A DNA stretch of 62,716 bases, taken from the NCBI RefSeq assembly GCF_014646655.1, contig NZ_BMNR01000010.1:1-62716 (forward strand), read 5' to 3'. The DNA comes from Yeosuana aromativorans. GTDB lineage: Bacteria; Bacteroidota; Bacteroidia; Flavobacteriales; Flavobacteriaceae. The notes under the pieces were generated by a model. That model had not been told where the DNA came from, searched no databases, and worked only from the letters and a program-made list of their open reading frames with translations. The translations under genes and the position numbers were made by a program. Each line of letters begins with the position of its first letter. The stretch's first letter is position 1. Below are positions 18,977 to 37,573 of this stretch, piece by piece.

Positions 18977-19023
18977 TTCTTAAGATACCTTAAGTTTTTT
19001 CTTTTAGCTTCACTATAATTTTG
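18977..19023 (+). promoter_or_regulatory. CRP-like site plus -7 box, promoter of the 19047-21912 operon (regulon site 1)
   Basis: TTCTTAAGATACCTTAAG (18977-18994) contains the dyad CTTAA-N6-TTAAG, the geometry of CRP/FNR sites. TAATTTTG (19016-19023) fits TAnnTTTG. The motif starts 39 nt before the -7 box, exactly as at the other three sites, which puts the dyad centre near -41, the class II activator position. The expected leader before the ATG at 19047 is about 17 nt. Confidence 0.75.
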
Positions 19024-19046
19024 ACCCATACAATAATAAATGGGTT

Positions 19047-19667
19047 ATGTTACGATATTTAAACTTAACAGTTTTTATCATATTTGAAACACTAGCATCA
19101 AATGCACAAAGTGTTAATTTCTATCCGGAAATGGTTTTAGGAAATCGTTCTACTAGCTATCAGCATGTTATTGGATTTAAAATTAATGACACATGGTCTC
19201 TTAATAATGTATCGCTATTTGATACCGAGTATACTAATGATAGGAATAACATCTTTTTTATTAGAAACACGTTGTCATATAAATTGAATAATCACTTTAA
19301 AGCTAATGCTGCTTTTGGTGTTAAAAACCCAGGAGCATTTGCAACCCTTACTTCACAATACCAATACACCGTTCCAGAATTTAAACTGAGTTATGCTATA
19401 GGTAGTACCTATCAAAATGGATTTACTCTAGAGCAAACTTTATCGATGAATTATACGCCAAGCCTGACTAAAAATATCCAAGCTTATGTAAATCTATTTG
19501 TGGTAGTTAATACCAATTTGAAAGTGTTAGATAGAGGCATTCAACAGCTGCGTATTGGCGTTAAAAAGAAACAACTTATTACAGGAATAGCATTAAATCT
19601 AGACCAATTTATCAAAGCAGAAAAAACTCTTGAAAACTTTGGATTATTTATAAAATATAACTTTTAA
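19047..19667 (+). CDS. Putative outer-membrane beta-barrel protein, 206 aa
   Basis: A signal peptide (FIIFETLASNAQS) is followed by alternating hydrophobic beta-strands (HVIGFKINDTWSLNNVSLF, YKLNNHFKANAAFGVK) and a C-terminal FIKYNF ending in Phe, as in outer-membrane barrels. I cannot name a family. It is the first gene of a tight plus-strand operon with DoxX, DMT, GNAT and nitroreductase genes and is preceded directly by the CRP-like promoter site. The low charge and eight or so strands suggest a small barrel rather than a porin. Confidence 0.6.
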   Translation: MLRYLNLTVFIIFETLASNAQSVNFYPEMVLGNRSTSYQHVIGFKINDTWSLNNVSLFDTEYTNDRNNIFFIRNTLSYKLNNHFKANAAFGVKNPGAFATLTSQYQYTVPEFKLSYAIGSTYQNGFTLEQTLSMNYTPSLTKNIQAYVNLFVVVNTNLKVLDRGIQQLRIGVKKKQLITGIALNLDQFIKAEKTLENFGLFIKYNF

Positions 19668-19678
19668 ACATTAAAATT

Positions 19679-20080
19679 ATGAACACAAAACAACACATTG
19701 GATTATTACTTTTAAGAATAAGTATTGCATTTACAATGCTAATCTATGGGATAAGCAAATTAAACTTTGGTATTGAATATATTAATGGTTTGCTTGAACA
19801 ATACGGCCTTCCTACATTTTTAGGCTATGGCGTTTTTGTTGGCGAATTTATTGCACCTATTCTCATCATTATTGGATATAGAACTAAACTAGCAGGACTT
19901 GCCTTCGCTATTAATTGCTTCGTGGCAATATTAATGGACCGACTTCCAGACGTGTTAAGCTTAAATGATCACGGTGGTTGGTCAATAGGATTAATTTTTA
20001 TCTATATGATGTTTGGCATTGCTATGTTTTTTATGGGTGCTGGCAAGTATGCTCTTTCAACAAATAATAAATGGGATTAA
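19679..20080 (+). CDS. DoxX-family membrane protein
   Basis: 133 residues with four hydrophobic segments. The start HIGLLLLRISIAFTMLIYGISKL and the mid-part GEFIAPILIIIGYRTKLAG are typical of DoxX (DUF4149-like) proteins. Family knowledge: small inner-membrane proteins often linked to thiol or redox stress and quinone handling, with no defined reaction in most bacteria. It lies 11 bp after the barrel protein gene and 10 bp before the DMT transporter gene, so it is in the same CRP-like-controlled operon, alongside a nitroreductase that also suggests redox stress. Confidence 0.88.
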   Translation: MNTKQHIGLLLLRISIAFTMLIYGISKLNFGIEYINGLLEQYGLPTFLGYGVFVGEFIAPILIIIGYRTKLAGLAFAINCFVAILMDRLPDVLSLNDHGGWSIGLIFIYMMFGIAMFFMGAGKYALSTNNKWD

Positions 20081-20090
20081 CAGCATAGCT

Positions 20091-20540
20091 ATGAGACTAT
20101 TTTTTTTATCAGTATTAGGATTAGCAGGAGGTGTTTTTTTAGCAGTCCAAGCCGGATTTAATGCTCAATTGGGCAGCACTTTAAAGCAGCCTATTCTCGC
20201 TGTGATTGCAAGTTCTATAAGTAGTGTAGTATTTGGATGCTTGATTTTATTGTTATTAAGCAAAGAGAGCATTCAAAATATTACAACAACACAAGTACCA
20301 TGGTACTTGTGGTTTATTGGTGGCTTGTTTAGTGTACTAGGTATAGCTATTTACTTCTATAACATTCCAAAAATTGGAATTTCAAAAATGATAGCTCTTG
20401 GGCTTTGTGGACAGCTCATTTTTTCATTAATCGCTGGAAAATATGGCTGGCTCAATTTACCCGTAGAACCTATTACTACCAAAAGACTTGTAGGAACCAT
20501 TGCTATGGTAACAGGTATTATACTTTTCAATATTAAATAA
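20091..20540 (+). CDS. DMT-family transporter (DUF606/YdcZ-like)
   Basis: 149 residues from the ATG at 20091 (MRLFFLSVLGLAGGVFLAVQAG); the longer frame from 20013 would run into the DoxX gene. Five hydrophobic segments, with GLAGGVFLAVQAGFNAQLG as the family signature. Family knowledge: YdcZ/DUF606 proteins are half-sized drug/metabolite transporter units that work as dimers; the substrates are mostly unknown. It is an inner-membrane protein, in the middle of the five-gene plus-strand operon, 6 bp before the acetyltransferase gene. Confidence 0.82.
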   Translation: MRLFFLSVLGLAGGVFLAVQAGFNAQLGSTLKQPILAVIASSISSVVFGCLILLLLSKESIQNITTTQVPWYLWFIGGLFSVLGIAIYFYNIPKIGISKMIALGLCGQLIFSLIAGKYGWLNLPVEPITTKRLVGTIAMVTGIILFNIK

Positions 20541-20546
20541 TAAATT

Positions 20547-21281
20547 ATGGAAACAATACAATCAAATATTACAAACCTAACTTCATTGTGGAAAAATGCA
20601 ACGCAACCTTTCAATACCTATAATGAAGACAAAAATATAGGCTATTGCTTTATACCTAACTCGCAATGGCCTAATAAGATTTGGCTGAAAAAAACCCATG
20701 ACCCTAAAGTTTTAAATGAAATTAAACTTCTTTTAAAATCAGAATTGGATGGTCTCACTTTTTCTCATTTTGATATAGATTTTAGTGAACAGAACAAAAT
20801 TATTTTTGAGAATCATGGCTTTGATGAATCCTCAATACAATTCGGAATGTCTTCAAAAATTAAAGACAAATTAAAGACTTCAAAAAAATTAAATTTAAAA
20901 CTAATCACCAATATTGAAGATTCCAAAAAATGGAGTCAATCATTTCAAAAAGCATTTGGATATCAAATTTCAGAAGAAACCGTTAATAAAACCTATCATC
21001 ATATAAACTACTACCTAATATATGATCAAGAAAATATTGTAGGAACTGTTATTACTCATCAAACACTTGCTACAATTGGCATACATAGTCTTGGCATATT
21101 ACCTAATATGCGAGGTAAGGGGTATGCTACACAAATAATGTACAGGGTACTTAACAAAGGATTAGAACAAGGATGCAACCTCGCAACCTTGCAGGCCTCA
21201 AAAATGGCAAAAAACATGTATGAAAAAATGGGATTTACAACAGAATTTATAATGAGAAACTACAAATTAAAAACACAATAA
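20547..21281 (+). CDS. GNAT-family N-acetyltransferase
   Basis: 244 residues. The C-terminal 120 residues hold the GNAT fold: GIHSLGILPNMRGKGYATQIM is the acetyl-CoA motif A (R/Q-x-x-G-x-G/A), followed by ASKMAKNMYEKMGF, the usual last helix and strand. The N-terminal half is a second, degenerate alpha/beta region. Family knowledge: transfers acetyl from acetyl-CoA to an amine; the acceptor is not predictable. It is cytoplasmic. It has 6 bp to the DMT gene before it and 1 bp to the nitroreductase gene after it, so is plainly co-transcribed. Confidence 0.88.
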   Translation: METIQSNITNLTSLWKNATQPFNTYNEDKNIGYCFIPNSQWPNKIWLKKTHDPKVLNEIKLLLKSELDGLTFSHFDIDFSEQNKIIFENHGFDESSIQFGMSSKIKDKLKTSKKLNLKLITNIEDSKKWSQSFQKAFGYQISEETVNKTYHHINYYLIYDQENIVGTVITHQTLATIGIHSLGILPNMRGKGYATQIMYRVLNKGLEQGCNLATLQASKMAKNMYEKMGFTTEFIMRNYKLKTQ

Positions 21282-21282
21282 A

Positions 21283-21912
21283 ATGGAACTATTAAAAAAT
21301 TTAAAATGGCGATATGCCACCAAAAAATTCGATACTACGAAAAAAGTCTCATCAGATGATCTTGAAAAATTAAAAGAAGCGGTTCAATTATCAGTTTCGT
21401 CTTATGGATTACAACTGTATAAAGTTTTAATCATTGAAAATATAGAAATTAGAGAGCAATTGAAACCAGTATCTTGGAATCAAAGTCAGATTACGGATTC
21501 CTCTCATTTGTTCGTTTTCTGTAATTACATAGATGTATCTGATAATGCTATTGACGACTTTATTAAACAAACAGCAGAAATAAGGGGCTTGGATCTAGAA
21601 CGATTAAATGGTTATGGGGATTTTATAAAAACTAAACTAGCTGAAAAATCTCAAGAAGAAAAAACAAGTTGGTTAAAATCGCAAATCTATATTGCACTTG
21701 GAAATCTTTTAAATGCTTGTGCCGAATTAAAAATAGATGCTTGCCCTATGGAGGGTTTTGAACCAGAAGCTTATAACAAAATTTTAAATCTTGAAGCCCA
21801 AGGTCTCAATGCTGTTGTTATTGCTCCGGTAGGTTACAGACACCAGGAGGACCATACTATAGGCGCAAAAAAAGTTAGAAAACCATTCAACTTATTGTTT
21901 CAAGAAATTTAA
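21283..21912 (+). CDS. NAD(P)H-dependent nitroreductase-family oxidoreductase
   Basis: 209 residues. The start LKNLKWRYATKKFDTTKKVS is the FMN-binding signature of the NfsB-like nitroreductase family. SSYGLQLYKVLIIEN, AGNLLNACAELKID-like helices and PVGYRHQEDH near the end complete the pattern. Family knowledge: a homodimeric FMN enzyme reducing quinones, nitro compounds or electrophiles with NAD(P)H; it often belongs to stress regulons. It is the last gene of the operon and is followed by a strong terminator hairpin at 21917-21953. Confidence 0.9.
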   Translation: MELLKNLKWRYATKKFDTTKKVSSDDLEKLKEAVQLSVSSYGLQLYKVLIIENIEIREQLKPVSWNQSQITDSSHLFVFCNYIDVSDNAIDDFIKQTAEIRGLDLERLNGYGDFIKTKLAEKSQEEKTSWLKSQIYIALGNLLNACAELKIDACPMEGFEPEAYNKILNLEAQGLNAVVIAPVGYRHQEDHTIGAKKVRKPFNLLFQEI

Positions 21913-21916
21913 AATC

Positions 21917-21953
21917 AATGAGATTCTTCACTCCTTAAGGAATCTCATTTTTT
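21917..21953 (+). terminator. Rho-independent terminator
   Basis: AATGAGATTC (21917-21926) pairs perfectly with GAATCTCATT (21940-21949) and a run of six T follows (21948-21953). It sits 4 bp after the nitroreductase stop and closes the 19047-21912 operon. The loop contains CCTTAAGG but not the full CRP-like dyad. Confidence 0.85.
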
Positions 21954-21981
21954 GAATAGCATTATAATAAATTGAAGAATT

Positions 21982-23202
21982 ATGCAGGTCATTGATTCAA
22001 AAAACTCTTTTCACATTATTTATTTAATAAGTTTTTCACATCTTATTAATGATTTGATACAGGGAATAATACCTTCAATATTTCCTTTGTTAAAAGAAAG
22101 CTTTCAACTTTCTTTTGGGCAAATTGGATTCATAACCTTTGCATTTCAATTTAGTGCTTCTATTTTACAACCTTTGGTAGGCTATTATACAGATAAAAAC
22201 CCTAAAGTTTATGCACAAATTTATGGATTGGTCCTAACAATATCTGGAGTCATATTGTTGTCTTATGCCTTCAGTTTTGCTTACTTAGTTGTATCCTGCA
22301 TTCTAATAGGAATAGGATCAGCGATCTTTCATCCTGAATCCAGTCGTATTGCTAATTTGGCTTCAGGAGGAAAGATTGGAGTGGCACAATCGATATTTCA
22401 AATAGGTGGTAACTTAGGAACAGCTCTTGCTCCCATATTAGTAACAATTTTGGTTCTACCTAACTCAAAACAATATGTAAACATCTTTATACTTCCTTTG
22501 ATAATCGGTCTTTTTCTTCTAAAAAAAATCACAGCTTGGTATAAAAAGCATTTAGAAACCAAGATTTCTTATAGGTTTAACGAACATTCAATGACAAGTA
22601 TCTCGTTTTCTAAGAGAAAATTAAAAATTATAATTGGAATATTATTATTAATAATTTTCTCAAAATTTATTTATGCCGCAAGCCTTTCAAATTATTATAG
22701 TTTCTACTTAATCGAGAAGTTTAATCTGACCATTGAACAATCGCAAACACATCTTTTTATTTATTTATTTTCATACATGTTGGGGACTATTCTTGGGGGA
22801 CCATTAGGTGACAAATTCGGCCGTTTATATGTTATATGGTTTTCTGTTTTTGGTGCGACACCATTTATACTGTGCTTACCTTATGCAAATTTGTTTTATA
22901 CAGATGTCCTAATGGTAATTATTGGATTAATAATGGCATCGGCCTTTCCTGCAATTATGTCCTATGCCCAAGAATTATTGCCTCAAAAGCTAGGTGTGAT
23001 ATCGGGGTTGTTTTATGGGTTTGCTTTTGGAGTTGCTGCCATAGGATCAGCGCTCATTGGACTATTGGCAGACTTTAAGTCCATTGGTTATGTGTATCAA
23101 TTATGTTCATTTCTTCCCTTAATTGGAGTTGTTTGTTTCTTGCTGCCAAACATAAACCCAAAAAACAATACTGCAGTCAAGGACCGTTGTTTGTTAACAT
23201 AA
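21982..23202 (+). CDS. MFS transporter, fosmidomycin-resistance-like
   Basis: 406 residues, twelve hydrophobic segments. SHLINDLIQGIIPSIFPLLK and FAFQFSASILQPLVGYYTDK are the typical first two helices of the Fsr-like group of MFS exporters, and GGPLGDKFGRLYVI is the mid-protein MFS signature between helices 8 and 9. Family knowledge: proton-driven export of small drugs or metabolites at the inner membrane. It is separated from the upstream operon by a terminator and followed, 35 bp later, by a Crp/Fnr-type gene that may control it. Confidence 0.87.
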   Translation: MQVIDSKNSFHIIYLISFSHLINDLIQGIIPSIFPLLKESFQLSFGQIGFITFAFQFSASILQPLVGYYTDKNPKVYAQIYGLVLTISGVILLSYAFSFAYLVVSCILIGIGSAIFHPESSRIANLASGGKIGVAQSIFQIGGNLGTALAPILVTILVLPNSKQYVNIFILPLIIGLFLLKKITAWYKKHLETKISYRFNEHSMTSISFSKRKLKIIIGILLLIIFSKFIYAASLSNYYSFYLIEKFNLTIEQSQTHLFIYLFSYMLGTILGGPLGDKFGRLYVIWFSVFGATPFILCLPYANLFYTDVLMVIIGLIMASAFPAIMSYAQELLPQKLGVISGLFYGFAFGVAAIGSALIGLLADFKSIGYVYQLCSFLPLIGVVCFLLPNINPKNNTAVKDRCLLT

Positions 23203-23237
23203 CATTTGCTAACTTGGTCCAGGCTAATAGGTATTCA

Positions 23238-23813
23238 ATGCAAAATGAAATCGTAAAATTAATCTCTAGATATCTTGAACTTTCAGATGAAGAGGCTTTT
23301 GCTTTTTCTGAATGTATTCCAATTAAAGAATTTAAAAAAGGTATTATTCTCTTAAGGGAAGGACAGATTTCCAGAGATTCATATTTTGTTATTCAAGGAT
23401 GTGTTAGAAAATATTATATCATTGATGGTGAAGAACGAACCACCGAGTTTTATGTAGAAGATGAATCTATTTCATCATTGCAAAGTTATAAAAACAAGAC
23501 ACCTGCCAATCATTATTTTGAATGTATTGAAGATTGTAGATTAGCGGTTTTAAATTATGACAAGGAGCAAGAATTATTTGAGCGCGTTCCGAAATATGAA
23601 TCTTTATGCAGAATGTCAATGGAAGATGATTTTGGCGAACAACAAGATGCATTAGCAAAATTTATTATTTCTAGCCCAGAAACTCGTTATAAAAATCTAC
23701 TAAAAACCAGACCCGATCTAATACAACGTGTTCCACAATACCATCTTGCAAGCTATCTAGGCATAAAACCCGAATCACTGAGCAGGATCAGAAAACGTGT
23801 GGCTAAAAAATAA
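23238..23813 (+). CDS. Crp/Fnr-family transcriptional regulator (second copy)
   Basis: 191 residues from the ATG at 23238 (MQNEIVKLISRYLELSDEE); longer frames overlap the MFS gene. Cyclic-nucleotide-binding-like beta-roll (KKGIILLREGQISRDSYFVIQGCVRKYY) and C-terminal helix-turn-helix (QRVPQYHLASYLGIKPESLSRIRKR). It is a clear relative of the protein at 18384-18971, with the same VPQY-ASYLG core in the recognition region, so the two may bind related sites. It is probably in an operon with the MFS gene. It ends 29 bp from the convergent PfkB kinase gene with no obvious terminator between them. Confidence 0.88.
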   Translation: MQNEIVKLISRYLELSDEEAFAFSECIPIKEFKKGIILLREGQISRDSYFVIQGCVRKYYIIDGEERTTEFYVEDESISSLQSYKNKTPANHYFECIEDCRLAVLNYDKEQELFERVPKYESLCRMSMEDDFGEQQDALAKFIISSPETRYKNLLKTRPDLIQRVPQYHLASYLGIKPESLSRIRKRVAKK

Positions 23814-23842
23814 GCTGCTCGAATATCCTAAGAATTGTTATA

Positions 23843-24748: not shown

Positions 24749-24794
24749 ACCATATATCTTACGTATATATGTCTTTTCTTTAAATTTTATTTTG

Positions 24795-24830
24795 AGAAGA
24801 GTGCTCTAGAAAAAAATTCCAGAGCATCTC
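24795..24830 (-). terminator. Hairpin between lipoprotein and PfkB genes
   Basis: TGCTCTAGAA (24802-24811) pairs with TTCCAGAGCA (24817-24826) with one mismatch, and flanking GAGA/TCTC add to the stem. It lies 25 bp past the stop of the small lipoprotein gene. The minus-strand side continues into an A/T-rich stretch without a pure U-run, so termination is likely partial. Confidence 0.45.
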
Positions 24831-24854
24831 AATAGTTGCTATTAATCAAGGATA

Positions 24855-25187
24855 CTACTCTTCTCTTTTAATTACTTTTACAGTTTTATGATCTACCATT
24901 CCTAATGAAAGGATTCGAAGCCATAAACTAGACTTTGTTTCTATGGTATACTTTTCAGCATCCAATTCGCTAACAAGTGCTTCCACATTACTTTCTTTTA
25001 CATTGATGCCAAGTAAGTGCAAATCACTTGTTTTTTTAAAGGTTAATTCCTTTGTTTTTTCTCCAAACACTTTTCCACCATTTTCAAATGGTTGTGTTTC
25101 TGTGTTAACTGGAAACTGTTGAACAGAACAGGATGAAATTGACACGAAAACTAACATCCCAAGTAATACTTTTTTAATATTCATCAT
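24855..25187 (-). CDS. Small lipoprotein, about 110 aa
   Basis: The ATG at 25187 (or 25184) is chosen over 25208 because the -7 box of its promoter covers 25206-25213, so RNA cannot include the longer start. MMNIKKVLLGMLVFVSISSCS is a lipoprotein signal with lipobox ISSC. The mature 90 residues (KTKELTFKKTSDLHLLGINVKESN, then WLRILSLGMVDHKTVKVIKR) match no family I know. It is probably anchored in the periplasm or outer membrane. It has its own CRP-like promoter (site 2) and a hairpin downstream, so it is a single-gene unit of the shared regulon. Confidence 0.7.
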   Translation of the reverse strand: MMNIKKVLLGMLVFVSISSCSVQQFPVNTETQPFENGGKVFGEKTKELTFKKTSDLHLLGINVKESNVEALVSELDAEKYTIETKSSLWLRILSLGMVDHKTVKVIKREE

Positions 25188-25205
25188 TTTATTTTTATTA
25201 TGACG

Positions 25206-25252
25206 CAAAAGTATTATGGGATTAAAATTTATTCATTGACTTTAGTTAAGAA
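25206..25252 (-). promoter_or_regulatory. CRP-like site plus -7 box, promoter of the small lipoprotein gene (regulon site 2)
   Basis: On the minus strand TTCTTAACTAAAGTCAAT (25252-25235) precedes TACTTTTG (25213-25206). The start-to-start distance is 39 nt, the same as in the other three promoters. The dyad is CTTAA-N6-TCAAT, a less symmetric version of site 1. The leader would be about 12 nt. Confidence 0.7.
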
Positions 25253-25267
25253 CCATTCTATATTCAA

Positions 25268-25927
25268 CTACCATTTTCTAACCTTACCTTGATGCCAGAA
25301 CTTTCCAGTTTCTACTTCATTGTTTAATAAATTTAAAATATCAGCTGCTACATCCTTAGGCAATCGAGGAGCTACTTTTCCTCCCATATCGGTCTGGGTC
25401 CAACCAGGATCTAAAGATGACACGGTTATATCCTGATTCTCTAATCGTTTTGCTAATAATTTTGTGTACATATTTAATGCTGCTTTAGACATTTTATAAT
25501 GCGGTTGAAAAGCATCAAAATTCTGTTCACTAAAAGAACCCCAATCTGAAGTTATATTAATGATATGTGCTTTAGAATTTAATCTTGGAAGGAGTTTTTC
25601 AGTTAGTTCAATAGTACCAAATACATTTGTGGCAAAGGTTTGTTTTAACTGTTTCATATTAATTGCTGAAGCATCCCATTTTTCAAGTAAAATTCCAGCA
25701 TTGTTGACTATAAAATCTAATTCTACATCTCCTAAATTCTCTACAAATTTGATAATGGAATCACTATTGGATAAATCGAGTTTTAAACATTGAAAGTTTG
25801 GTCGATTTAACGTGTGGTTCCCAGAAGTAGAAGTTCCAATAACTTTAGTATTTGAATTGCTTGTTAACAATTCAGCCGTTGCTAAACCAATACCTCTACT
25901 GCTACCTGTAACTATTCCGTGTTTCAT
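25268..25927 (-). CDS. SDR-family oxidoreductase
   Basis: 219 residues. All classical short-chain dehydrogenase motifs are present: TGSSRGIG near the N-terminus (NAD(P) binding), NNAG at about residue 75, the serine in ITSDWGS, and the YKMSK active-site Tyr/Lys pair. Family knowledge: NAD(P)-dependent oxidation or reduction of a carbonyl or alcohol; this small size with the C-terminal HQGKVRKW resembles csgA-like/YdfG-like members. It overlaps the preceding esterase-like gene by 4 bp (ATGA) and is the last gene of the long hydrolase operon. Confidence 0.9.
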   Translation of the reverse strand: MKHGIVTGSSRGIGLATAELLTSNSNTKVIGTSTSGNHTLNRPNFQCLKLDLSNSDSIIKFVENLGDVELDFIVNNAGILLEKWDASAINMKQLKQTFATNVFGTIELTEKLLPRLNSKAHIINITSDWGSFSEQNFDAFQPHYKMSKAALNMYTKLLAKRLENQDITVSSLDPGWTQTDMGGKVAPRLPKDVAADILNLLNNEVETGKFWHQGKVRKW

Positions 25928-27168
25928 AATATTCTTTTTAGTTCTGTAATAAACTTTTCTAGTTCTGGTTCATTATTCATTCGAGCAATTTGCACTGCTT
26001 TCTTATACCATTTCCTTGTATCTTTCATTCTTCCAATAGCCTTAAAATAATTTCCTTTTGCAAAATGCAAAATCGAAGCGTCAGGAAATTTATCAAGTCC
26101 TAATTCTAAAATTTCAAGAGCATCTTCTAATTTATTATTCTCAAGATAAAAGCTAGCAAAATTATTGAACCACCTAGCTTGTCTATAATAATTTTTAATA
26201 AAATCTTTCCCATCAATTTCCCTCATTAACTCTTCAAAAATTACAAGATTATTTTCTTTATGGGCTTGTAATAAAAGATAGTGTTTTGTGTCAGGGTGAA
26301 TCTCTTCTGAAACTTGATATTTTTTACCTCTTACTTGATAATGCTTTTTAAGGCTTTCAATACCGCCAAAGTCTAAAAACTCTTTAATTGAATAAAACCG
26401 GATTGGTCCATAGTAATTAAAAAACAGTTTTAACCCTTCATTTATAGTAGTCAATGGAGTTGTATAATGATTCTCTTTATCTGAAAGATTGTATTTCCAT
26501 TCTATTTTTTTTGATGGATAACTTTGAAAAATAGAATCTAAGGAAGACATAGATTCTATTGCCCAATTTTCAAAACTTCCTAATGCCACATATAGTTTTA
26601 AATTATGTTGTGTGTTGTTTTTTAACATTCCGCTTACCATTTCTAAGCGGTCCTTTGAAATATGTGTAGGACTTGCCAAAAGAAAACCATTAAAAAGAGT
26701 AGGCTTGTTTGTAAATATCTCAACACCGAGTCCTGCTGCCATTTCCCAACCAAAATAAATTCTCTCATCGATTGTTCTATATTTTACGTTTATTTCAGGA
26801 ATCAATTCTTCTTCCAGAAATTGAATAAATTTTGAAGACTCCTTATTGAACAGATTACGTCTTTTTTCGGAGTCTGTATTAATTCCAACAACAATAAATT
26901 CTGGTGTGATTTCTTGCCAAGTAAGATTTTGCTGAAATACAATGCCGTTCAAAAAATAGCGTTGGGCATCTATTACATAAAGAACTGGATATTTTTTTAA
27001 ACTTTTATAGTAATTAGATGGTAAAAAAATTTGGATGTCTCGTTCCTCTTGTAAAATATTGGATTTTAGAATTATTGAATTACAAAATTCTTTTCTTTCA
27101 TTTAAATTTTGAGATACCACTTGGCTTATCATTAAAAGTAGAATTATTATGTAATGGATTTTTGTCAT
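25924..27168 (-). CDS. Secreted alpha/beta-hydrolase-fold protein with TPR C-terminus; nucleophile Ser missing
   Basis: The ATG at 27168 gives a clean signal peptide (MTKIHYIIILLLMISQVVS); an ATG at 27204 is possible. Residues about 30-280 resemble the esterase (IroE/Fes-like) family: RDIQIFLPSNYY, YPVLYVIDAQRYF, EFIVVGINTDSEKRR. The nucleophile elbow, normally G-H-S-x-G-G, reads G-W-E-M-A-A, so the serine is Glu. The C-terminal 120 residues form TPR-like helices (LEDALEILELGLDKFPDASILHFAKG). It is a paralogue of the protein at 34072-35217, which has the same change. It is probably a periplasmic binding or scaffold protein rather than an esterase. It overlaps the SDR gene by 4 bp. Confidence 0.75.
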   Translation of the reverse strand: MTKIHYIIILLLMISQVVSQNLNERKEFCNSIILKSNILQEERDIQIFLPSNYYKSLKKYPVLYVIDAQRYFLNGIVFQQNLTWQEITPEFIVVGINTDSEKRRNLFNKESSKFIQFLEEELIPEINVKYRTIDERIYFGWEMAAGLGVEIFTNKPTLFNGFLLASPTHISKDRLEMVSGMLKNNTQHNLKLYVALGSFENWAIESMSSLDSIFQSYPSKKIEWKYNLSDKENHYTTPLTTINEGLKLFFNYYGPIRFYSIKEFLDFGGIESLKKHYQVRGKKYQVSEEIHPDTKHYLLLQAHKENNLVIFEELMREIDGKDFIKNYYRQARWFNNFASFYLENNKLEDALEILELGLDKFPDASILHFAKGNYFKAIGRMKDTRKWYKKAVQIARMNNEPELEKFITELKRIL

Positions 27169-27208
27169 ATTATTTTCGAAATTGCTATAAAGGCTACTCT
27201 TCATAAAA

Positions 27209-28408: not shown

Positions 28409-28409
28409 T

Positions 28410-28874: not shown

Positions 28875-28900
28875 GATTTTAATTTTTAATTCCATTTAAA

Positions 28901-29992: not shown

Positions 29993-30029
29993 GTCATGTG
30001 ATTTTTGTTTTAGGTAATTAATCTTCATT

Positions 30030-33000
30030 TTAAATTTCTTTAAATAAAGTTTCTATTTTAGACTTTAAGTTATCATTAGGAACTACCTTATAAAATTCCT
30101 CAAGCAAATCCAAAGTGGTTGGCTTTTTAGGATATTGATTATTCAAAAGGAAATTTTTAAGTGCCATATTAACATAGTCTTCTCCTATTAACTCAGTTAA
30201 TTTCACAATAACTATTGCTCCTTTAGAATAGGCAATATGTGAATTCCCATAAGCGACTTTGTATAGCGGCTGATTTTCACTTAGTCCTTTCTCATTCTCA
30301 TAAATTTGCTGATGAATTTTTAATCGTTCCATCATTTTCCCCTTACCATACATCTTTTTGTACAGCATCATTTCAGTGTACATTGCTAAGGTCTCAGTAA
30401 GCATAGACGCCCCTTCTCTATCATCTGGGTTGATTTGACTATTGCCCCACCAAAGATGTGAAAGCTCATGTCCTGCCAATTCATTAATAACATCTTGCTT
30501 TTTATCGCCTTCAAGATTAGTATGAAAAATCATATCTTCAGTCATGAAAATAGCTGATGGGTATGCTGTTGCAGCAAACCCCCTGGTAAAAGAGGAAACT
30601 TCTACAAAATTGATGCTCTTAAAAGGATATTTACCAAAATTATCGGTACAATAATCCAACGTTAGTTTAGCATTATCTAGCAAATGGTCTACATTTTCAA
30701 AATGATTTTTGGTGTAAAAAACATTGATTTCTATATTTTTATGTTGAACTTCTTTATGTTCATATACTGCTGATGAAACTGCAAATCGAAAAGGAATATA
30801 TTCAGCTTTATAGTTGAAATAATTTCTATTAGCATCAGACCACTGTTTTGCTAAATCTCCTGTTCCAATGGCTGTTTGTGAAGCTTCTGTAGAAACTGTC
30901 ATATTCAAATTTATAAAGTCGTTTTTGAAAACCTCTGGTGCTTCCAATTTCTTTATTTCAGAAGCTTTTCCTAATTGAAATTCTTCCCGCTTAAGTTCTT
31001 CTTCAATTTCTCTATCCTTTTGATATCCGATAGATGGGAAGTAATTGCTAATTCGCATAAAGGAACCATTTTCAATAATGGCATTAAATGATTGATGGCC
31101 GTTTACAGCAAACCATTTATAGGATAAGTTAAAACTTAAAGTAGCTCTTTCGTAAGGTTCCAATGGTTTTTGCAGTTTTATTTCAGTAACATATTCTTCC
31201 AGTTTTAAACTGTTGCCATTACTTTTAAATAATGCATCGTCAACTTTTAAATCGGGGTGAAAATTTATCAATATATTCTCAATTGGCTTTTCAGTTTGAT
31301 TAGTTAAAACATAATCTCCGTGAATTTGATAAGCATTTTTCGAAGGATAAAGCTGAATATCTGTATTTACTTCATTTATAGTGGGTTGAGGCAGCATTTC
31401 ATATTTGCGGTAATTCTGTTCATAATGAATTGCATCTAAAATAGATTTTTCTTCATTCTTCGGAATGTAGCCTTCCATAAAAAGAGTCGCACTAAAAGCT
31501 CCTAAAATCAATACTGTTGAAACGAAAATGGTCTTTCTAATAGTCCACGCCTTTGTTTTCATAAATTCGTTTATAAACCAAAGCAGCACAATTAAACTAA
31601 CCCCGAACAATAGACGTTGAGAGAAGGCAGAAATATAAATTCCATAACCATTAAATTCGCTAAAACTACCCTTAAAGCTTGAAAATATTTGCACTAATGG
31701 ATAGGGAAAAATCATATTAGATAATGGCGTTGCTAAAGCAAAAACCGCTACTGTAGAAACTCCTAAAGCTACAAATCGATTCTTGAAGATATCGTTTATT
31801 AGTAATAGAAAGGCCGCAAACAATATTAAAGGTATTGTATTAAAGGTGATAACGCCTAAATATGCATACCAATCAATTTTAAAGTAATTATAGCTAAACT
31901 GAAATATGAGTCCTTCAGCAATTAGCAAAAAGGTGAAAAAAAACACCAACAGGCTCACTGACATAAAATGTCCCAATAACTTACTACTAGAGAAAAAAGT
32001 ACTTCTTTCAATCAAATCAAAGCCAGAAGTATGACTTCTCCAATACAAATCATTAATGAAATAGACTAAAATCAATAATCCAAATAAATGAAAGTTTTCA
32101 GAAATCGAGGTAGCTAACAGACCTGAACTGGCAAATTTTTCAGGCAATCGAATACCTTTATCTATGTCTGCAAACATTTCCATTCCTACATAAAATATTA
32201 ATAGTATAGAGACGGCAACTATAGACACGCTTTTAAATAGATAGATTACATCTATTTTCGCAAAAGAAAATACTGATTTAATACCTGTTAAATTTCCAAA
32301 GTACAGTTGTGTTGTTTTAATTTCTTTTAGCTTAACAAAGGAATAAGTTTTAACTATTTCTGTTTTCTTATGGGCTTTATTTACTTTTCTTTTAGAAAAA
32401 GAAAACAAACGGTAACTCAGCCATAAAAAGAATCCTGATAGGGTAACTACGATTAAGCGGTTTATTAATAGTATTCCTGATAAGGGTACAATCAATTCAT
32501 TTTTTTGATGCACAGAAAATGTTCTTGCTTCAAAAAAGTAAGCCGATAAGCCAAAGGGATCTAAAAAAGCTGATAGTTGTTGCGCCTCTATAGATTGTGG
32601 TAGACTACTTGACATAAATGGTGAGTTAGAAAACACTAAAAGCACCATATAAAGTACATACAGTAATAAGCCAGCAACAACAACTAATAACTTCTTATGT
32701 GTTGAATATGCAACGAAAAATAAAAAACTACAAACAAAAAAACAGTTTAGTAATCCAAAAACTAAAAGCGGGTACAAGTAATGCCATATACTAAAGCTAG
32801 TTTGCATTTCAGGGCCAATTCGCAAATTCTGACCAATGATAAAACCTAAAATTATCAGTACAAAACTTAAAGCTGTTTTAAAGAAAAGAAACCAAAATTT
32901 CCCTTTTAAATAAGTCGTTTTGCTTAAAGGCAGGGAGAAAAACATAATATCAAACTTAGCATCCCATTCTTTAAAAAGTATTTGACATGAATATAAAATG

Positions 33001-33200
33001 GCGAAAAATATAATCGACAAACTCAGCATTCCCATCATAAAACCGATGGTGTATGGTGAATTAAGATATATACCTTCTCCTGCAGTAAGATTAAATTTAT
33101 TGCCACAGAAAACTCCAATAAATATCATAATTAAAACAAATAGACTCATCGTCCAAAGTTTTGGGTTTTGTCTTAATTCAAATTTAAATATAGAATTCAT
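30030..33200 (-). CDS. ABC transporter permease fused to M1-family aminopeptidase
   Basis: 1056 residues. The first 550 hold two ABC-2-type permease units, each with six or so hydrophobic segments. The last 450 are a gluzincin peptidase with HELSH (about residues 909-913) and a downstream MLTETLAMY Glu. The usual GAMEN loop is replaced by FAATAYPSAIF, as in other members of this fusion family to my knowledge. The peptidase would face the periplasm. It overlaps the ATPase gene by 4 bp, so the ATPase is its partner. Function is unproven: export, or processing of a peptide at the membrane, is an inference. Confidence 0.9.
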   Translation of the reverse strand: MNSIFKFELRQNPKLWTMSLFVLIMIFIGVFCGNKFNLTAGEGIYLNSPYTIGFMMGMLSLSIIFFAILYSCQILFKEWDAKFDIMFFSLPLSKTTYLKGKFWFLFFKTALSFVLIILGFIIGQNLRIGPEMQTSFSIWHYLYPLLVFGLLNCFFVCSFLFFVAYSTHKKLLVVVAGLLLYVLYMVLLVFSNSPFMSSSLPQSIEAQQLSAFLDPFGLSAYFFEARTFSVHQKNELIVPLSGILLINRLIVVTLSGFFLWLSYRLFSFSKRKVNKAHKKTEIVKTYSFVKLKEIKTTQLYFGNLTGIKSVFSFAKIDVIYLFKSVSIVAVSILLIFYVGMEMFADIDKGIRLPEKFASSGLLATSISENFHLFGLLILVYFINDLYWRSHTSGFDLIERSTFFSSSKLLGHFMSVSLLVFFFTFLLIAEGLIFQFSYNYFKIDWYAYLGVITFNTIPLILFAAFLLLINDIFKNRFVALGVSTVAVFALATPLSNMIFPYPLVQIFSSFKGSFSEFNGYGIYISAFSQRLLFGVSLIVLLWFINEFMKTKAWTIRKTIFVSTVLILGAFSATLFMEGYIPKNEEKSILDAIHYEQNYRKYEMLPQPTINEVNTDIQLYPSKNAYQIHGDYVLTNQTEKPIENILINFHPDLKVDDALFKSNGNSLKLEEYVTEIKLQKPLEPYERATLSFNLSYKWFAVNGHQSFNAIIENGSFMRISNYFPSIGYQKDREIEEELKREEFQLGKASEIKKLEAPEVFKNDFINLNMTVSTEASQTAIGTGDLAKQWSDANRNYFNYKAEYIPFRFAVSSAVYEHKEVQHKNIEINVFYTKNHFENVDHLLDNAKLTLDYCTDNFGKYPFKSINFVEVSSFTRGFAATAYPSAIFMTEDMIFHTNLEGDKKQDVINELAGHELSHLWWGNSQINPDDREGASMLTETLAMYTEMMLYKKMYGKGKMMERLKIHQQIYENEKGLSENQPLYKVAYGNSHIAYSKGAIVIVKLTELIGEDYVNMALKNFLLNNQYPKKPTTLDLLEEFYKVVPNDNLKSKIETLFKEI

Positions 33201-34075
33201 GACCTGTTTGTTTGAGTTAGTGCATAAAAATAAACGTGTTCCAACAAAGGTGTCGTAGCTTCAAAATCACTTGGTTGATTTTCTGAGTATACTGTGATAT
33301 ATAATTCTCTCTCGATTAATTGTTGACTAATAACATTATAATTGTTTATATAGGATTCCAAATCACCTGTTTTGATTGATTTAGACCAAATCTTGTTTTC
33401 TAATTCAGAAATCAGGTCTTTAGGTGTACCGGTTTTTAAAATTTGGCCTTTGTTCATAATGGTCATTTTTGAACACAGATTCTTAACATCTTCCACTAAG
33501 TGAGTGGATAGAATTACAATAACTTCAGTACTAATATCATTTAATAAAGTATTGAAACGATTGCGTTCTTCTGGGTCTAGTCCAGCAGTGGGCTCATCCA
33601 CAATAATTATTTTCGGCTTTCCTAATAAAGCTTGTGCCACACCAAAGCGTTGTTTCATTCCACCTGAAAACGTATGTACTTCTTTGTTCTTAAAACCCCA
33701 AAGATTAACTTTCTCTAACAAATGTTGAATTTGGTTTTTGCGTTCTGTAGCATCTTTTACACCTTTTAAAATGGCAATATGATCTAATAGATTATAAGCA
33801 CTAACTTTAGGATATACACCAAAATCCTGAGGTAAAAACCCTAGGTGTTTTTTAATGTCGTCAGGATTTTTAACAATGTTAACATCGTTAAAAAGGATTT
33901 CACCTGAAGTGGGCTTTTGAAATCCAACAATTGTTTTCATTAAAGAGGATTTTCCTGCACCATTTGGACCTAATAAACCAAACATCCCATTCTCTATTTC
34001 TAAAGAAATATTTCTAATTGCTTGATGTCCGTTTTTATAAGTCAGCTCTAGATTATCAATTTTTAAAGTGTTCAT
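33197..34075 (-). CDS. ABC transporter ATP-binding protein
   Basis: 292 residues with Walker A GPNGAGKSS (about residue 38), Q-loop LPQDFGVYP, signature FSGGMKQRFG, Walker B IIIVDEPTAGLDPEER and the switch His in ILSTHLVED. The C-terminal 70 residues are a small extra domain. Family knowledge: energises an ABC-2 (CcmA/NatA-like) exporter. It overlaps both the permease/peptidase gene (33197-33200) and the esterase-like gene (34072-34075) by 4 bp, so the three are translationally coupled. Confidence 0.94.
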   Translation of the reverse strand: MNTLKIDNLELTYKNGHQAIRNISLEIENGMFGLLGPNGAGKSSLMKTIVGFQKPTSGEILFNDVNIVKNPDDIKKHLGFLPQDFGVYPKVSAYNLLDHIAILKGVKDATERKNQIQHLLEKVNLWGFKNKEVHTFSGGMKQRFGVAQALLGKPKIIIVDEPTAGLDPEERNRFNTLLNDISTEVIVILSTHLVEDVKNLCSKMTIMNKGQILKTGTPKDLISELENKIWSKSIKTGDLESYINNYNVISQQLIERELYITVYSENQPSDFEATTPLLEHVYFYALTQTNRS

Positions 34076-35217
34076 GATTTAATCTTTTTAATGGTGTTAA
34101 TCGTTCTTGTCTTTCGTTGTAATAGCTTTTTGGAATCTGGATATTTTTTCAACAAAAGATTGTATAGCTGAACTGCTTCTATAAATTGATTATTCTTTTC
34201 ATAAAATGCTGCAAAATGAGAAAGTGCATAATCTAAATTGCTATCAGCTAATTCATTTATTAACTCTTGTTTGTTTAATGAATTCAATAGTGTTTCAAAG
34301 TGATAAAAATCTCTTTCTCTCATGGCGCTTCTAATAATGGTAAATTTTGACCACAAAGAAAGTTCAGGAACAAAACCGTGCCTGTTGGCTCTTTCTTTTA
34401 CATATTTATAGGCATAATCCAAACCACCTTCATTAATAAATTTTTGAAGGTTATCGACTTCAAATTCTTGATAGTATTTATAATAATTTCGAATTCCATG
34501 ATATAGGGTTGGATACCCTGTTGAGCGGTGTTGCTCTATATCAAGTTTTAAGAAGGCCCATTGCAGACCATCTATATTTTTTTGAGCCAACAGGGAATCC
34601 AACTTAACTGCAGTGTGTTTTACATCATATTCATCCGGACTTACAGAAAAATATAGGTTAGTATGTAATGTTGAAACATCATTTAACTTATCTATGGCAT
34701 CGAGTATTGGGTAACCACTTGCCATAATATGTGCATCAAACAATGTTGGGGTTGATAACATGGTATTAAACACCACACTTGCACCATATTCCCAGCCAAA
34801 AATTAGGTTTTCATCATTAGTTCTAAAATTTATATTTATATATGCTGTAAGTTCCTTTTCAAGAAACTCAATAAACCTTTCTTTGCCATCTCCTAAATCT
34901 TGAAACCGCTTTGGATAGTCTGTTTTAACACCAACAACAATAAAGTCTGGAGTTAATTGAAACTGATTGAAAGATTGACTTAAACTAACAGCGTACAAAA
35001 AAAATCGTTGCCCATCTAATACATAAAGTACAGGGTATTTTTCTTTTGAATCTTTATAATTTGGAGGAAGATAGATTTGTATCTGACGTTCCTCGTTTAA
35101 TACCTTTGATTTAATAAAGTGATTGGTACCTACAATATTTTCTAATGCTCTATTTTGTGCAGCAAATTGTTGTACCCCGATAAAAAGTGTAAGTATGAAG
35201 AGAACTATTTTTTTCAC
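34072..35217 (-). CDS. Secreted alpha/beta-hydrolase-fold protein with TPR C-terminus; nucleophile Ser missing (second copy)
   Basis: 381 residues with signal peptide MKKIVLFILTLFIGVQQFAAQ. Esterase-like core: ERQIQIYLPPNYKDSKEKYP, YVLDGQRFFLYAV, FIVVGVKTDYPKR. The nucleophile elbow is G-W-E-Y-G-A instead of G-H-S-x-G-G. The C-terminal repeats (NNQFIEAVQLYNLLLKKYPDS) are TPR-like. It is a paralogue of 25924-27168 with the same layout and the same Ser-to-Glu change, so loss of classical esterase function predates the duplication. It is coupled to the ABC ATPase gene by a 4-bp overlap, which hints at a periplasmic partner of the transporter. Confidence 0.78.
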   Translation of the reverse strand: MKKIVLFILTLFIGVQQFAAQNRALENIVGTNHFIKSKVLNEERQIQIYLPPNYKDSKEKYPVLYVLDGQRFFLYAVSLSQSFNQFQLTPDFIVVGVKTDYPKRFQDLGDGKERFIEFLEKELTAYININFRTNDENLIFGWEYGASVVFNTMLSTPTLFDAHIMASGYPILDAIDKLNDVSTLHTNLYFSVSPDEYDVKHTAVKLDSLLAQKNIDGLQWAFLKLDIEQHRSTGYPTLYHGIRNYYKYYQEFEVDNLQKFINEGGLDYAYKYVKERANRHGFVPELSLWSKFTIIRSAMRERDFYHFETLLNSLNKQELINELADSNLDYALSHFAAFYEKNNQFIEAVQLYNLLLKKYPDSKKLLQRKTRTINTIKKIKS

Positions 35218-35233
35218 AATTTAAGTTTATTTT

Positions 35234-35578
35234 TTAGACATTATCTTTATTACAATAAGTCGCTTTCTCAAAATCCCTTATGTTAATAGAAATAATAGGT
35301 ACTTCAGGAAACATTGCTTTAAGTTCTGTTACAATTTGTTTAGAGAGGTTCGCTTTCTGTTCTGTATTTCGGCCTTGCATGATATTGGCAAATACATGGA
35401 TGAAGTTATCGCTTGTATTTCCAGTCGTATAGTATTGGTATGGATTAATTCTTACTTTTATTTCCTCGGGAAGAAACAATCCGGTCGATTCTGCAGTATT
35501 ATATACGTTTTGTATAATTTCTTGTGGTGATTTTAATTTTATGATCTGTTCGGAACAGTCTATTACAAAATGTGGCAT
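35234..35578 (-). CDS. 5-carboxymethyl-2-hydroxymuconate isomerase-like tautomerase
   Basis: 114 residues starting MPHFVIDCSEQI. The Pro right after the initiator Met is the catalytic residue of the tautomerase superfamily, and the HFVIDCSE start is characteristic of the CHMI (HpaF) family, as is FANIMQGRNTEQKANLSKQIV in the middle. Family knowledge: ketonisation or isomerisation of muconate-type intermediates in homoprotocatechuate breakdown. No other aromatic-degradation gene lies nearby, so a general tautomerase role is more likely. It is in the hydrolase operon, 16 bp before the esterase-like gene. Confidence 0.85.
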   Translation of the reverse strand: MPHFVIDCSEQIIKLKSPQEIIQNVYNTAESTGLFLPEEIKVRINPYQYYTTGNTSDNFIHVFANIMQGRNTEQKANLSKQIVTELKAMFPEVPIISINIRDFEKATYCNKDNV

Positions 35579-35592
35579 AGTTTAAGTTTTAA

Positions 35593-36684
35593 TTAATAAT
35601 TATTGAAATTTTCTATTACTAAATCTGTTATGTCTCTAGCCAATTTGGTAGGTGAGTTACAGTCACAATTGCTAAAACCTATAACATAAATATCTAAACT
35701 TGGCACATAAACTCCCATTGATTTAAACCCAAAAATGCTTCCGCCATGTTCTCTTGTTGGTATGCCATTAATATCTTTCAAATGCCAGCCATAGCCATAG
35801 TTAATATGTTCTCCTTTATTTAAAGTATAGTTAGTAAACACTTTTTTCTTTGATACTTCAGTTATTAATGAATTGGTATTAATTGCTTCTTGCCATTTCA
35901 ACATATCATCAACCGTTGACATTAAGGAGCCAGAAGCATACGGGATACTTAAACTGACTTGCATTTTGTTTGTAAACTCACCTCTATTGTGATAGCCATA
36001 GGCTCTATTCTTTACAATCTCTTTATCACTTGCATAACGGGAATTGTTCATCCCAAGCTTTTCGAAAATGCTTTTTTCTATAAAGTCTTCATAGGTCTTT
36101 CCAGTTACTAATTCTATAATATATCCTAATACGACATAACCAGAATTGCAATAGTCAAATTTTTCACCTGGTTTAAAATCAACTGGTTCATTTTTAAAAA
36201 AGTCAACTAGCTCCTCTGGTGACATATCTTTTTTTGCAATACCCATAATCGATTTCATTTTAGTATAGTCTTTTATACCTGACGTATGCGTCAATAAATG
36301 ATGAATGGTGATATTGTTTCCGTTAGGATAATCTGGAATGTATTTTGAAATAGCATCATTTACGTTTAATTTTCCTTGTTCTTGGAGCATCATGATAGCA
36401 ATGGCAGTAAATTGTTTGGTCATCGAACCTATTTGAAACACGTTTTCGGGTTTCATTTCAACATCTAATTCAATGTTAGCTTGACCAAATGCTTTTCGAT
36501 AAATAGGTTTTCCATCTTTGGTTACTAAAAATACTGCTCCAGGTTCATCCGCCTCTTTAAATACTGTGGTCAAAATACTATCAATCTGTGTTTCTAAAGA
36601 TTGAGAATATGTAGCTTGCATCGCCAAAATGACAATCATAAAAAGCTTGATTTGTTTTAAATATTCTAATTTCATTATGTTCAT
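35593..36684 (-). CDS. Secreted class C beta-lactamase-like serine hydrolase
   Basis: 363 residues; signal peptide FMIVILAMQATYSQS. The penicillin-binding fold motifs are intact: S-x-x-K as GSMTK (Ser87, Lys90), Y-x-N as DYCNSGY at about residue 178, and HGG in REHGGSIFGF near 315. Family knowledge: the beta-lactamase/D-alanyl-D-alanine carboxypeptidase/esterase group; Bacteroidota encode many with unknown targets. It is the first gene of the long minus-strand operon and is preceded by CRP-like promoter site 3 at 36721-36767. The expected leader is about 30 nt. Confidence 0.9.
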   Translation of the reverse strand: MNIMKLEYLKQIKLFMIVILAMQATYSQSLETQIDSILTTVFKEADEPGAVFLVTKDGKPIYRKAFGQANIELDVEMKPENVFQIGSMTKQFTAIAIMMLQEQGKLNVNDAISKYIPDYPNGNNITIHHLLTHTSGIKDYTKMKSIMGIAKKDMSPEELVDFFKNEPVDFKPGEKFDYCNSGYVVLGYIIELVTGKTYEDFIEKSIFEKLGMNNSRYASDKEIVKNRAYGYHNRGEFTNKMQVSLSIPYASGSLMSTVDDMLKWQEAINTNSLITEVSKKKVFTNYTLNKGEHINYGYGWHLKDINGIPTREHGGSIFGFKSMGVYVPSLDIYVIGFSNCDCNSPTKLARDITDLVIENFNNY

Positions 36685-36720
36685 TTTTTAATTGATAATA
36701 TTTTTGATGTTTAATTAAAT

Positions 36721-36767
36721 CAAACTTAGCTGGTTAATTAACTAATAATCTTAAGGTATCTTAAGAA
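36721..36767 (-). promoter_or_regulatory. CRP-like site plus -7 box, promoter of the hydrolase operon (regulon site 3)
   Basis: On the minus strand the 18-mer TTCTTAAGATACCTTAAG (36767-36750) is identical to regulon site 1, and TAAGTTTG (36728-36721) is the -7 box; the spacing is again 39 nt. The spacer sequence between them is unrelated to site 1, so the match is not a simple duplication. It would drive the genes from 36684 to 25268. Confidence 0.75.
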
Positions 36768-36810
36768 AATCCAACAGTTTTAAATTAAGACTGAAAACAC
36801 AGACTTTAGG

Positions 36811-37503
36811 TTACATTATTTTTGAAATTGCTAGTGACCTCTGCTTTTTAAACCCTTTAATCAATAGCCAAACGGAAAATGAGAACTCGCCAATTACAGA
36901 AGGCATAATAACTATAACTTCGAAAACATCTTTATAATCACTATAATTAGACATAAATAGTTTTGCCATACCATCTACTATATAACCTATTGCAGCTAGT
37001 ATTAATAGTAAGCCTAAAACTTTTGGTATATATGTTGATCTGATAGCCAGATAACCCAGAACGATTAAATGAATCCCAAAAAATATCAATCCAACAGTCC
37101 AAAGTGTATCAAAATCAATTAACAGCTCTGATACACTATTTTGTAAGTTTGTAGAATTACTTGTCTTAAATGTGATCTGATAGATTTCCGATAACTTGAA
37201 TAAAGCAAAACCAAATAATAAAGCGTGCAATAGTCTAAAAAAGGATGCTATATAAGATGTGGTTATGTTTATTGATTTTGTCAAACCAAATAATGACCAA
37301 ACCAATACTAGATCAAAAACCAACATAACTAGAAACCCAAGTAATCCATTTCCGAATAGTGAATGATTATTAATGAAGTTTGCAGTAGTAATTGATGGGT
37401 TGCTACTATCTATTAGACTTTCAAGTACCACAAAGTTGGCGTAAAAACCAGCTAAAAAAATCATTACATAAGCGATTCCCGATATTTTTCCTAATTGTTT
37501 CAT
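36811..37503 (-). CDS. DUF4386-family membrane protein
   Basis: 230 residues with six hydrophobic segments. The start LGKISGIAYVMIFLAGFYANFV and FRLLHALLFGFALF followed by LGYLAIRSTYIPKVLGLLLILAAIGYIVDG is the DUF4386 pattern. No function is known to me. It is in the inner membrane. Monocistronic: its own CRP-like promoter (site 4, 37527-37573) lies 24 bp upstream, and the next gene starts from promoter site 3. Membership in the shared regulon is the only functional clue. Confidence 0.85.
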   Translation of the reverse strand: MKQLGKISGIAYVMIFLAGFYANFVVLESLIDSSNPSITTANFINNHSLFGNGLLGFLVMLVFDLVLVWSLFGLTKSINITTSYIASFFRLLHALLFGFALFKLSEIYQITFKTSNSTNLQNSVSELLIDFDTLWTVGLIFFGIHLIVLGYLAIRSTYIPKVLGLLLILAAIGYIVDGMAKLFMSNYSDYKDVFEVIVIMPSVIGEFSFSVWLLIKGFKKQRSLAISKIM

Positions 37504-37526
37504 AATTCTGCATATTAAATTTTATA

Positions 37527-37573
37527 CAAAATTATTGACTCACAAAAAGGATTTCATTGACTTTGGTTAAGAA
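37527..37573 (-). promoter_or_regulatory. CRP-like site plus -7 box, promoter of the DUF4386 gene (regulon site 4)
   Basis: On the minus strand TTCTTAACCAAAGTCAAT (37573-37556) differs from site 2 by one base. TAATTTTG (37534-37527) follows at the same 39-nt start-to-start distance. The sequence between motif and -7 box is unrelated to site 2. The leader would be about 17 nt. Confidence 0.7.

Follow-up and report, generated by a model that had tools for sequence, protein, structure and literature searches.

The DNA analysed here (the window) is a stretch of 62,716 nucleotides (nt) of Yeosuana aromativorans, contig 10 of a genome of 3.76 Mb in 34 contigs. It codes for two Crp/Fnr-type regulators, both on the forward strand: Crp1 (18384–18971, 195 amino acids, recognition helix VTPEFLSYLRKK) and Crp2 (23238–23813, 191 amino acids, recognition helix IKPESLSRIRKR). 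In the same block lie four promoters in which a dyad precedes a −7 box of the TAnnTTTG type. Site 1 (18977–19023, forward strand) has the dyad TTCTTAAGATACCTTAAG at 18977–18994 and the box TAATTTTG at 19016–19023, and Crp2 is the final gene of the run behind it. The other three are on the reverse strand: site 2 (36721–36767; dyad TTCTTAAGATACCTTAAG, box TAAGTTTG), site 3 (25206–25252; dyad TTCTTAACTAAAGTCAATGAA, box TACTTTTG), and site 4 (37527–37573; dyad TTCTTAACCAAAGTCAATGAA, box TAATTTTG). The distance between the first base of the dyad and the first base of the box is exactly 39 nt in all four. An earlier, sequence-only reading of the window had placed the dyads at 18977 (+), 36767 (−), 25252 (−), and 37573 (−), each 39 nt before TAnnTTTG, with two Crp/Fnr genes inside the block and a 5-bp gap between the stop of the first (18971) and site 1. 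All of this is confirmed. Its further claims, that the four sites share one dyad and form a single regulon, are replaced below by two related operator types and two regulators.

The pattern TTCTTAA-N6-TNAA-N22-TANNTTTG has four exact matches in the genome, which are the four sites of the window; there are none with one mismatch and 39 with two, and the latter resemble noise, since the reversed control has 44 matches at up to two mismatches. When the spacer is freed to 12–32 nt, one finds six matches (three in the control), the four sites all having a spacer of 22 and the other two not. The spacers were said to be unrelated; their pairwise identity is 29%–48%. Without the box, the core of sites 3 and 4, CTTAACNNAAGTCAAT, has exactly two matches in the genome, both in the window (54 at up to two mismatches, versus 123 in the control). 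The core of sites 1 and 2, TCTTAAG-N4-CTTAAG, has four exact matches, two of them in the window, and at up to one mismatch 15 matches versus 14 in the control. It is thus no commoner than its control, and the claim depends on dyad and box together.

The 39-nt spacing is not confined to this block: many Crp-like genes of the family are followed by a dyad and a box at the same distance. Relatives were searched in 249 genomes of the family (G and L numbers designate genomes and loci). For the spacing, 147 Crp-like genes were considered: 140 fetched loci, including the two of the window, and seven paralogues from the same genome as the window (the own-genome genes L044 and L049 were dropped, having no match to the queries). 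With boxes accepted from 40 nt before to 160 nt after the stop codon, there are 68 TAnnTTTG boxes in 63 loci. Among the full dyads (TTRA-N6-TYAA) found 24–59 nt before a box, 33 of 37 are at exactly 39 nt, no other distance occurring more than once; leaving out two hand-picked loci, 32 dyads at 39 remain, and their proteins fall into 12 clusters at 50% identity. In the remainder of the 147 loci, the distance of 39 is found for 8 of 27 full dyads, these 8 being GTCAA-type or similar sites near Crp genes. If [ACG]AnnTTTG boxes and slightly looser dyads are allowed, a site at 39 is present in 91 of 145 loci. In a sample of the phylum, made of the 27 best-scoring loci and not of a random draw (two were already in the family set), the site at 39 is present in 11 of 27 loci, and in 5 of the 21 outside the family. 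That the four dyads form two near-identical pairs might suggest chance or the recent copying of one promoter. Against this, the spacers differ, there are four exact matches versus none with one mismatch, and the sites have counterparts in other genera; chance is ruled out by the genome-wide uniqueness at spacer 22 and by the family peak at 39, and we give this explanation practically no weight.

Some of these loci have tandem arrays. In a conserved group with the helix ITKEFLSKIK, dyads come in pairs with a spacing of 23 nt, and the box at 39 nt from the proximal dyad usually lacks its first T. The copy of this group in the genome of the window (L042, contig 7, 76420–76989) has its proximal dyad 39 nt before GAACTTTG, and similar arrays stand behind many relatives. 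With [ACG]AnnTTTG boxes, sites at 39 are seen in 49 loci and sites at 52 in 30, and the spacings between dyad pairs are 23 (57 loci), 13 (47 loci), and 33 (31 loci). We tentatively read the peak at 52 and the pair spacings of 13 and 33 as overlapping half-sites within tandem arrays. Many Crp-like regulators of the family seem, then, to keep their own predicted binding site beside their gene. Two other genes of the same genome deserve mention. At L043 (contig 2, 113560–113606), the coding sequence of the Crp-like gene itself contains, within its end, a likely operator, CACTTAACATATATCAATGAA, which starts 39 nt upstream of the TAATTTTG found at the stop codon. At L048 (contig 7; locus position 2136 for the box), a Crp-like gene of another type is followed by a different near-perfect palindrome, ACTGCTACTTAAGTAGTAGTT, which precedes TATATTTG by 39 nt.

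The dyads of the window are of two types. Sites 1 and 2 are CTTAAG-ATAC-CTTAAG, a symmetric arrangement (CTTAAG-N4-CTTAAG type). Sites 3 and 4 are CTTAACYAAAGTCAATGAA, in which the left half is TTAA and the right half, read on the other strand, is TTGA. The recognition helices end in PEFLSYLRKK in Crp1 and in PESLSRIRKR in Crp2. Both proteins belong to the Crp/Fnr superfamily, having its N-terminal domain, its C-terminal winged helix-turn-helix, and a two-fold symmetric predicted operator beside a promoter. The cyclic-nucleotide-binding domain (PF00027) is above cut-off in both (35.4 bits in Crp1, cut-off 27.5) and is found in all 57 aligned proteins at E ≤ 0.01; genome-wide, 13 places match it at E 0.001, 12 of them above cut-off. 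The Pfam model HTH_Crp_2 matches 20 of the 57 proteins, Crp1 not being among them. The AlphaFold2 model of Crp1, built from 57 sequences, has a pLDDT of 95.7, and a fold search with it retrieves 3dn7 first, followed by full-length FNR (TMq 0.85) and CRP structures; Crp2 matches 3dn7 over its whole length at the sequence level (E 2.5e-36). CRP proper binds cyclic AMP; the CRP-specific NCBIfam model gives 18.4 bits for Crp1 and 15.8 for Crp2, far below its cut-off of 266. Neither protein is FNR in the strict sense, which carries an iron-sulfur centre on a cluster of N-terminal cysteines: Crp1 contains only one Cys and hence no FNR-type cluster, in which it differs from the FNR of Escherichia coli, and Crp2 has Cys but no such cluster.

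Crp1 and the CTTAAG-type site are kept together across relatives. The dyad stands behind the stop codon, 39 nt before TAnnTTTG, in all four of the closest Crp1 relatives (78%–87% identity) and in three of the seven at 45%–55% identity. Among the remaining four of these seven, the dyad precedes CAnnTTTG by 39 nt in L061, where it is at the stop codon, and in L060, where it is 97 nt past the stop codon; L057 and L059 have none by the rules used. A separate scan covered 14 named records, from Gaetbulibacter, Pontimicrobium, Aequorivita, Psychroserpens, Lutibacter, Winogradskyella, Seonamhaeicola, Muricauda, three Myroides, and three metagenome-assembled genomes, at least two of the 14 being assemblies already in the first set. 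A Crp1-type site comparable to site 1 is found directly behind Crp1 in all 14. Strains of Gaetbulibacter and Lutibacter are among the relatives that have both regulators.

The sites of the second type are not directly behind Crp2, because the next gene is on the opposite strand. Site 3 has a counterpart before the same lipoprotein gene in L252, L256, L266, and L268, and GTCAA-type sites precede the gene behind site 4, which codes for a DUF4386 protein, in L250, L251, L253, L255, L257, L269, and L270. In G200 (L251) and in L263, the esterase/SnoaL/SDR part of the hydrolase genes begins with a Crp2-type site of its own, which shows that targets shift between relatives. The sequence TTCTTAACTWAAGTCAATG is near the Crp2 relative in 5 of the 13 genomes of the Crp2 group (G083, G077, G102, G153, and G121), and in G153 and G121, which have distant Crp2 relatives, TTCTTAACTTAAGTCAATGA is directly behind the gene. 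Within the stretch covered, Crp2-type sites occur in six of the nine named loci holding Crp2 and in none of the five loci without it.

Genomes with a single regulator separate the two types. In G129, a Crp1 relative is present, no Crp2 was found, and all four sites of the locus are of the TTAA type; behind them are the DoxX unit, the DMT/nitroreductase unit, and DUF4386, the last of which follows a Crp2-type site in genomes that have Crp2. At L254:10654–10727, a single palindrome between the DUF4386 and DMT genes has a −7 box on either side, the two divergent boxes both being at a distance of exactly 39 nt. Conversely, G083 (88% complete) has Crp2 and no Crp1 orthologue that could be found, and the sole site of its Crp2 locus is of the GTCAA type. 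Exact full matches are absent from the 12 genomes in which neither regulator was found, versus 9 of 12 and 8 of 13 (Crp2 group) with one or both; an exact match in G002 looks like chance. A single regulator acting on all four sites, as the sequence-only reading had it, would explain why TTCTTAA and the 39-nt spacing are common to them, and one protein could read related half-sites. The single common regulon was nevertheless rejected, as the type of operator goes with the regulator that the locus carries (G129, G083, and the named loci), and the recognition helices of Crp1 and Crp2 differ at the residue that our alignment places opposite Arg185 of CRP; we regard it as unlikely. The pairing of sites 1 and 2 with Crp1 and of sites 3 and 4 with Crp2, i.e., two operator types with one regulator each, is probable as part of the overall explanation given below.

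The helices suggest how such a pairing might be encoded. In the parts of the literature on CRP considered here, residues 180, 181, and 185 are given as DNA contacts, and 180 and 181 are linked to operator bases (PMC1274295). By our reading of the helix, the residue that follows the helix Ser (Tyr189 in Crp1, Arg183 in Crp2) would align with Arg185. At 79 strict sites, this residue is Arg with C at dyad base 14 in 25 cases and with T in 4, and another residue with T in 46 and with C in 4. Hence 71 of the 79 sites fit a rule in which Arg goes with TCAA and other residues with TTAA (Fisher p 1.7e-12). For tandem loci, the better-scoring dyad was used, and 12 of the 91 site-bearing loci were dropped for having no dyad that matches 8 of 8. 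We are inclined to think, with some reservation, that this residue sets the half-site (Arg for TTGA, others for TTAA) and that a large, little-studied family of Bacteroidota Crp/Fnr paralogues is self-labelled; the same leaning applies to what we mean by the term, namely that many genes are followed, right after their stop codon, by their own predicted operator, centred at −41.5 in the next promoter, and often by a second copy 23 nt upstream of it.

Promoters of the Bacteroidota primary sigma factor have, besides the −7 box TAnnTTTG, a −33 TTG located 17–23 nt upstream. The box is present at all four sites, and the −33 TTG at none of them; it is found in 1 of 38 related sites and in 20 of 192 other boxes. 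In the part of the Flavobacterium psychrophilum promoter map used here, the −7 box spans −12 to −5 (PMC9723704). With this position, the 39-nt spacing puts the dyad centre at −41.5, the class II activator position, in agreement with the value near −41 proposed earlier, and the second dyad of tandem arrays would be centred at −64.5. The following mechanism can be proposed. Crp1 would bind CTTAAG-N4-CTTAAG at sites 1 and 2 and switch on the DoxX/DMT/GNAT/nitroreductase run and the ten-gene hydrolase/ABC unit, and Crp2 would bind CTTAACYAAAGTCAATGAA at sites 3 and 4 and switch on the lipoprotein and DUF4386 genes. In each case, the −33 TTG is absent, and the dimer bound at −41.5 would touch the RNA polymerase holding TAnnTTTG. 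Any ligand is putative. Class II control of these units by Crp/Fnr proteins, which the sequence-only reading had suggested, is thus favoured by the geometry, the conservation, and the co-occurrence with regulators, in the form of two regulons and not of one.

Activation appears likelier than repression because of the −41.5 class II position and the absence of the −33 TTG. Crp/Fnr proteins can also repress, and since the dyads occupy the place of the −33 element, they might be repressor operators blocking the promoter. Yet a repressor would hardly need a distance fixed to one base across divergent genes, the −33 TTG is missing at the candidate dyads, and tandem arrays with a weakened −7 box suit activation better, which makes repression improbable in our view. 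The fixed spacing would equally fit an upstream element that is the −35-like part of an alternative sigma factor promoter. This is very unlikely, as the element is a dyad, serves promoters on either side of it in G129, and changes type with the neighbouring Crp-like protein.

Since the run behind site 1 ends with Crp2, the two regulators may form a cascade. From 19040 to 23240, a single TAnnTTTG lies on the same strand, at 20801 within the GNAT gene. A promoter of Crp2's own, which would break the cascade, was considered and rejected for boxes of this type, none being found on the same strand from 20801 to 23240. With this position and no such box up to its start, Crp2 is probably raised by Crp1 and would then act on sites 3 and 4; the cascade is likely in this genome. 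Crp2 is last in the run, in the same order, in L250, L251, L256, and 7 of the 14 named loci (L263–L268 and L271).

Altogether, we think it probable that the two paralogous Crp/Fnr-type regulators are local class II activators with matched operators, linked here by a Crp1-to-Crp2 cascade. Several observations weigh against this reading or its extensions. Under the looser rules, 54 of 145 loci have no site at 39 behind the Crp gene. Concerning Crp2, 8 of the 13 Crp2-group genomes have no exact Crp2-type match near it, three of the nine named loci with Crp2 show no Crp2-type site within the stretch covered, the Crp2 of the window itself has no site behind its gene (the nearest is 1.4 kb off), and the G209 counterpart of site 3 carries GTTAA on the right, not GTCAA. 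Operator and regulator are not perfectly associated either: a contig of G129 other than that of its locus holds a TCAA-type match with one mismatch, exact TTAA-type matches occur in G077 and G133 although neither has a clear Crp1, and in G141 and G021 such matches follow other Crp-like genes. The absence of the −33 TTG is weak evidence, because TTG is rare in other boxes too (10%). In L257, L269, and L270 (the first and the last being the same assembly), Crp2 is not part of the run but is located upstream of Crp1, so the cascade does not hold in all relatives. Finally, the Arg/C rule has eight exceptions in 79, and a tree made by a quick method implies about four residue changes, for which an independent-pairs test has no power (p 1); the rule is therefore a clade-level association.

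The genes behind the four sites are diverse. The unit behind site 1 (19047–21912, forward strand) codes for a 206-amino-acid protein without Pfam match, DoxX, DMT_YdcZ, GNAT, and a nitroreductase, an order kept in 9 of the 14 named loci (L263–L271) and in L250, L251, L256, and L257. An MFS transporter (21982–23202, forward strand) is in the same run and is found in two of the 14 named loci (L264 and L271). Behind site 3 is a small lipoprotein-like protein without Pfam match (24855–25187, reverse strand), whose ATG is at 25187, the open reading frame list beginning it at a TTG at 25208. The ten-gene unit behind site 2 (25268–36684, reverse strand) codes, according to a Pfam scan, for a serine hydrolase (beta-lactamase family), a CHMI-like protein, an esterase, an ABC ATPase, an ABC-2 permease with M1 domain, an alpha/beta hydrolase, a SnoaL-like protein, a DUF3471 protein, an esterase, and an SDR. 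In L250 and L251, the serine hydrolase likewise stands behind a Crp1-type site. The protein with the M1 peptidase domain (30030–33200, 1056 amino acids) has a weak ABC-2 permease match, below cut-off, and its gene adjoins that of the ABC ATPase. The DUF4386 membrane protein behind site 4 (36811–37503, reverse strand) matches PF14329 with 156 bits. As a guess, these units could serve a protective or modifying response to an outside compound. Further along the window is an open reading frame of 1809 amino acids (38512–43941) with no Pfam match at E 0.001.

Few Bacteroidota transcription factors have known targets, and the usual promoter rules are inapplicable in this phylum. A spacing rule exact to one base, linking regulator gene, operator, and −7 box, would turn many anonymous Crp-like genes into testable regulator-operator pairs. 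These would be natural pairs for probing how a recognition helix reads DNA, and the window would add a compact two-step cascade. If the family is indeed self-labelled, the targets and the specificity of many such regulators could be read directly from genomes.

In the titles and abstract openings of the open-licence papers found, the arrangement of a Crp gene with its own dyad 39 nt before a box is undescribed, and the main text of the flavobacterial promoter map has no mention of crp or fnr (PMC9723704). PMC13277301 deals with a further Crp-like protein, which plays no part in the argument here. CrpPg of Porphyromonas gingivalis, a Bacteroidota Crp homologue, is reported to be independent of cyclic AMP, and no operator dyad is given in the parts of that article examined (PMC12040651). 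The nearest solved relative of both Crp1 (E 5.5e-38) and Crp2 is 3DN7, a cyclic nucleotide binding regulatory protein of Cytophaga hutchinsonii, whose PDB entries name no operator or target gene. The HcpR, DNR, and NssR regulons resemble the present case in the co-evolution of helix and operator and in their local targets, and their operators are TTGAC-N4-GTCAA where residue 180 is Ser or Pro, in the sections of PMC1274295 considered. Their specificity is tied there to residues 180 and 181, whereas Crp1 and Crp2 share Pro and Glu at these positions by our reading of the helix and differ at the residue aligned with 185. Unlike in those regulons, no hcp or denitrification gene was recognised among the block genes scanned. 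A close parallel is class II activation by CRP and FNR in E. coli. It differs from the system proposed here in that the latter has a TAnnTTTG −7 box, TTAA/TTGA half-sites, and a regulator gene beside the predicted operator; the two have in common the Crp/Fnr fold, a dyad centred at −41.5, and the absence of the upstream core promoter element.

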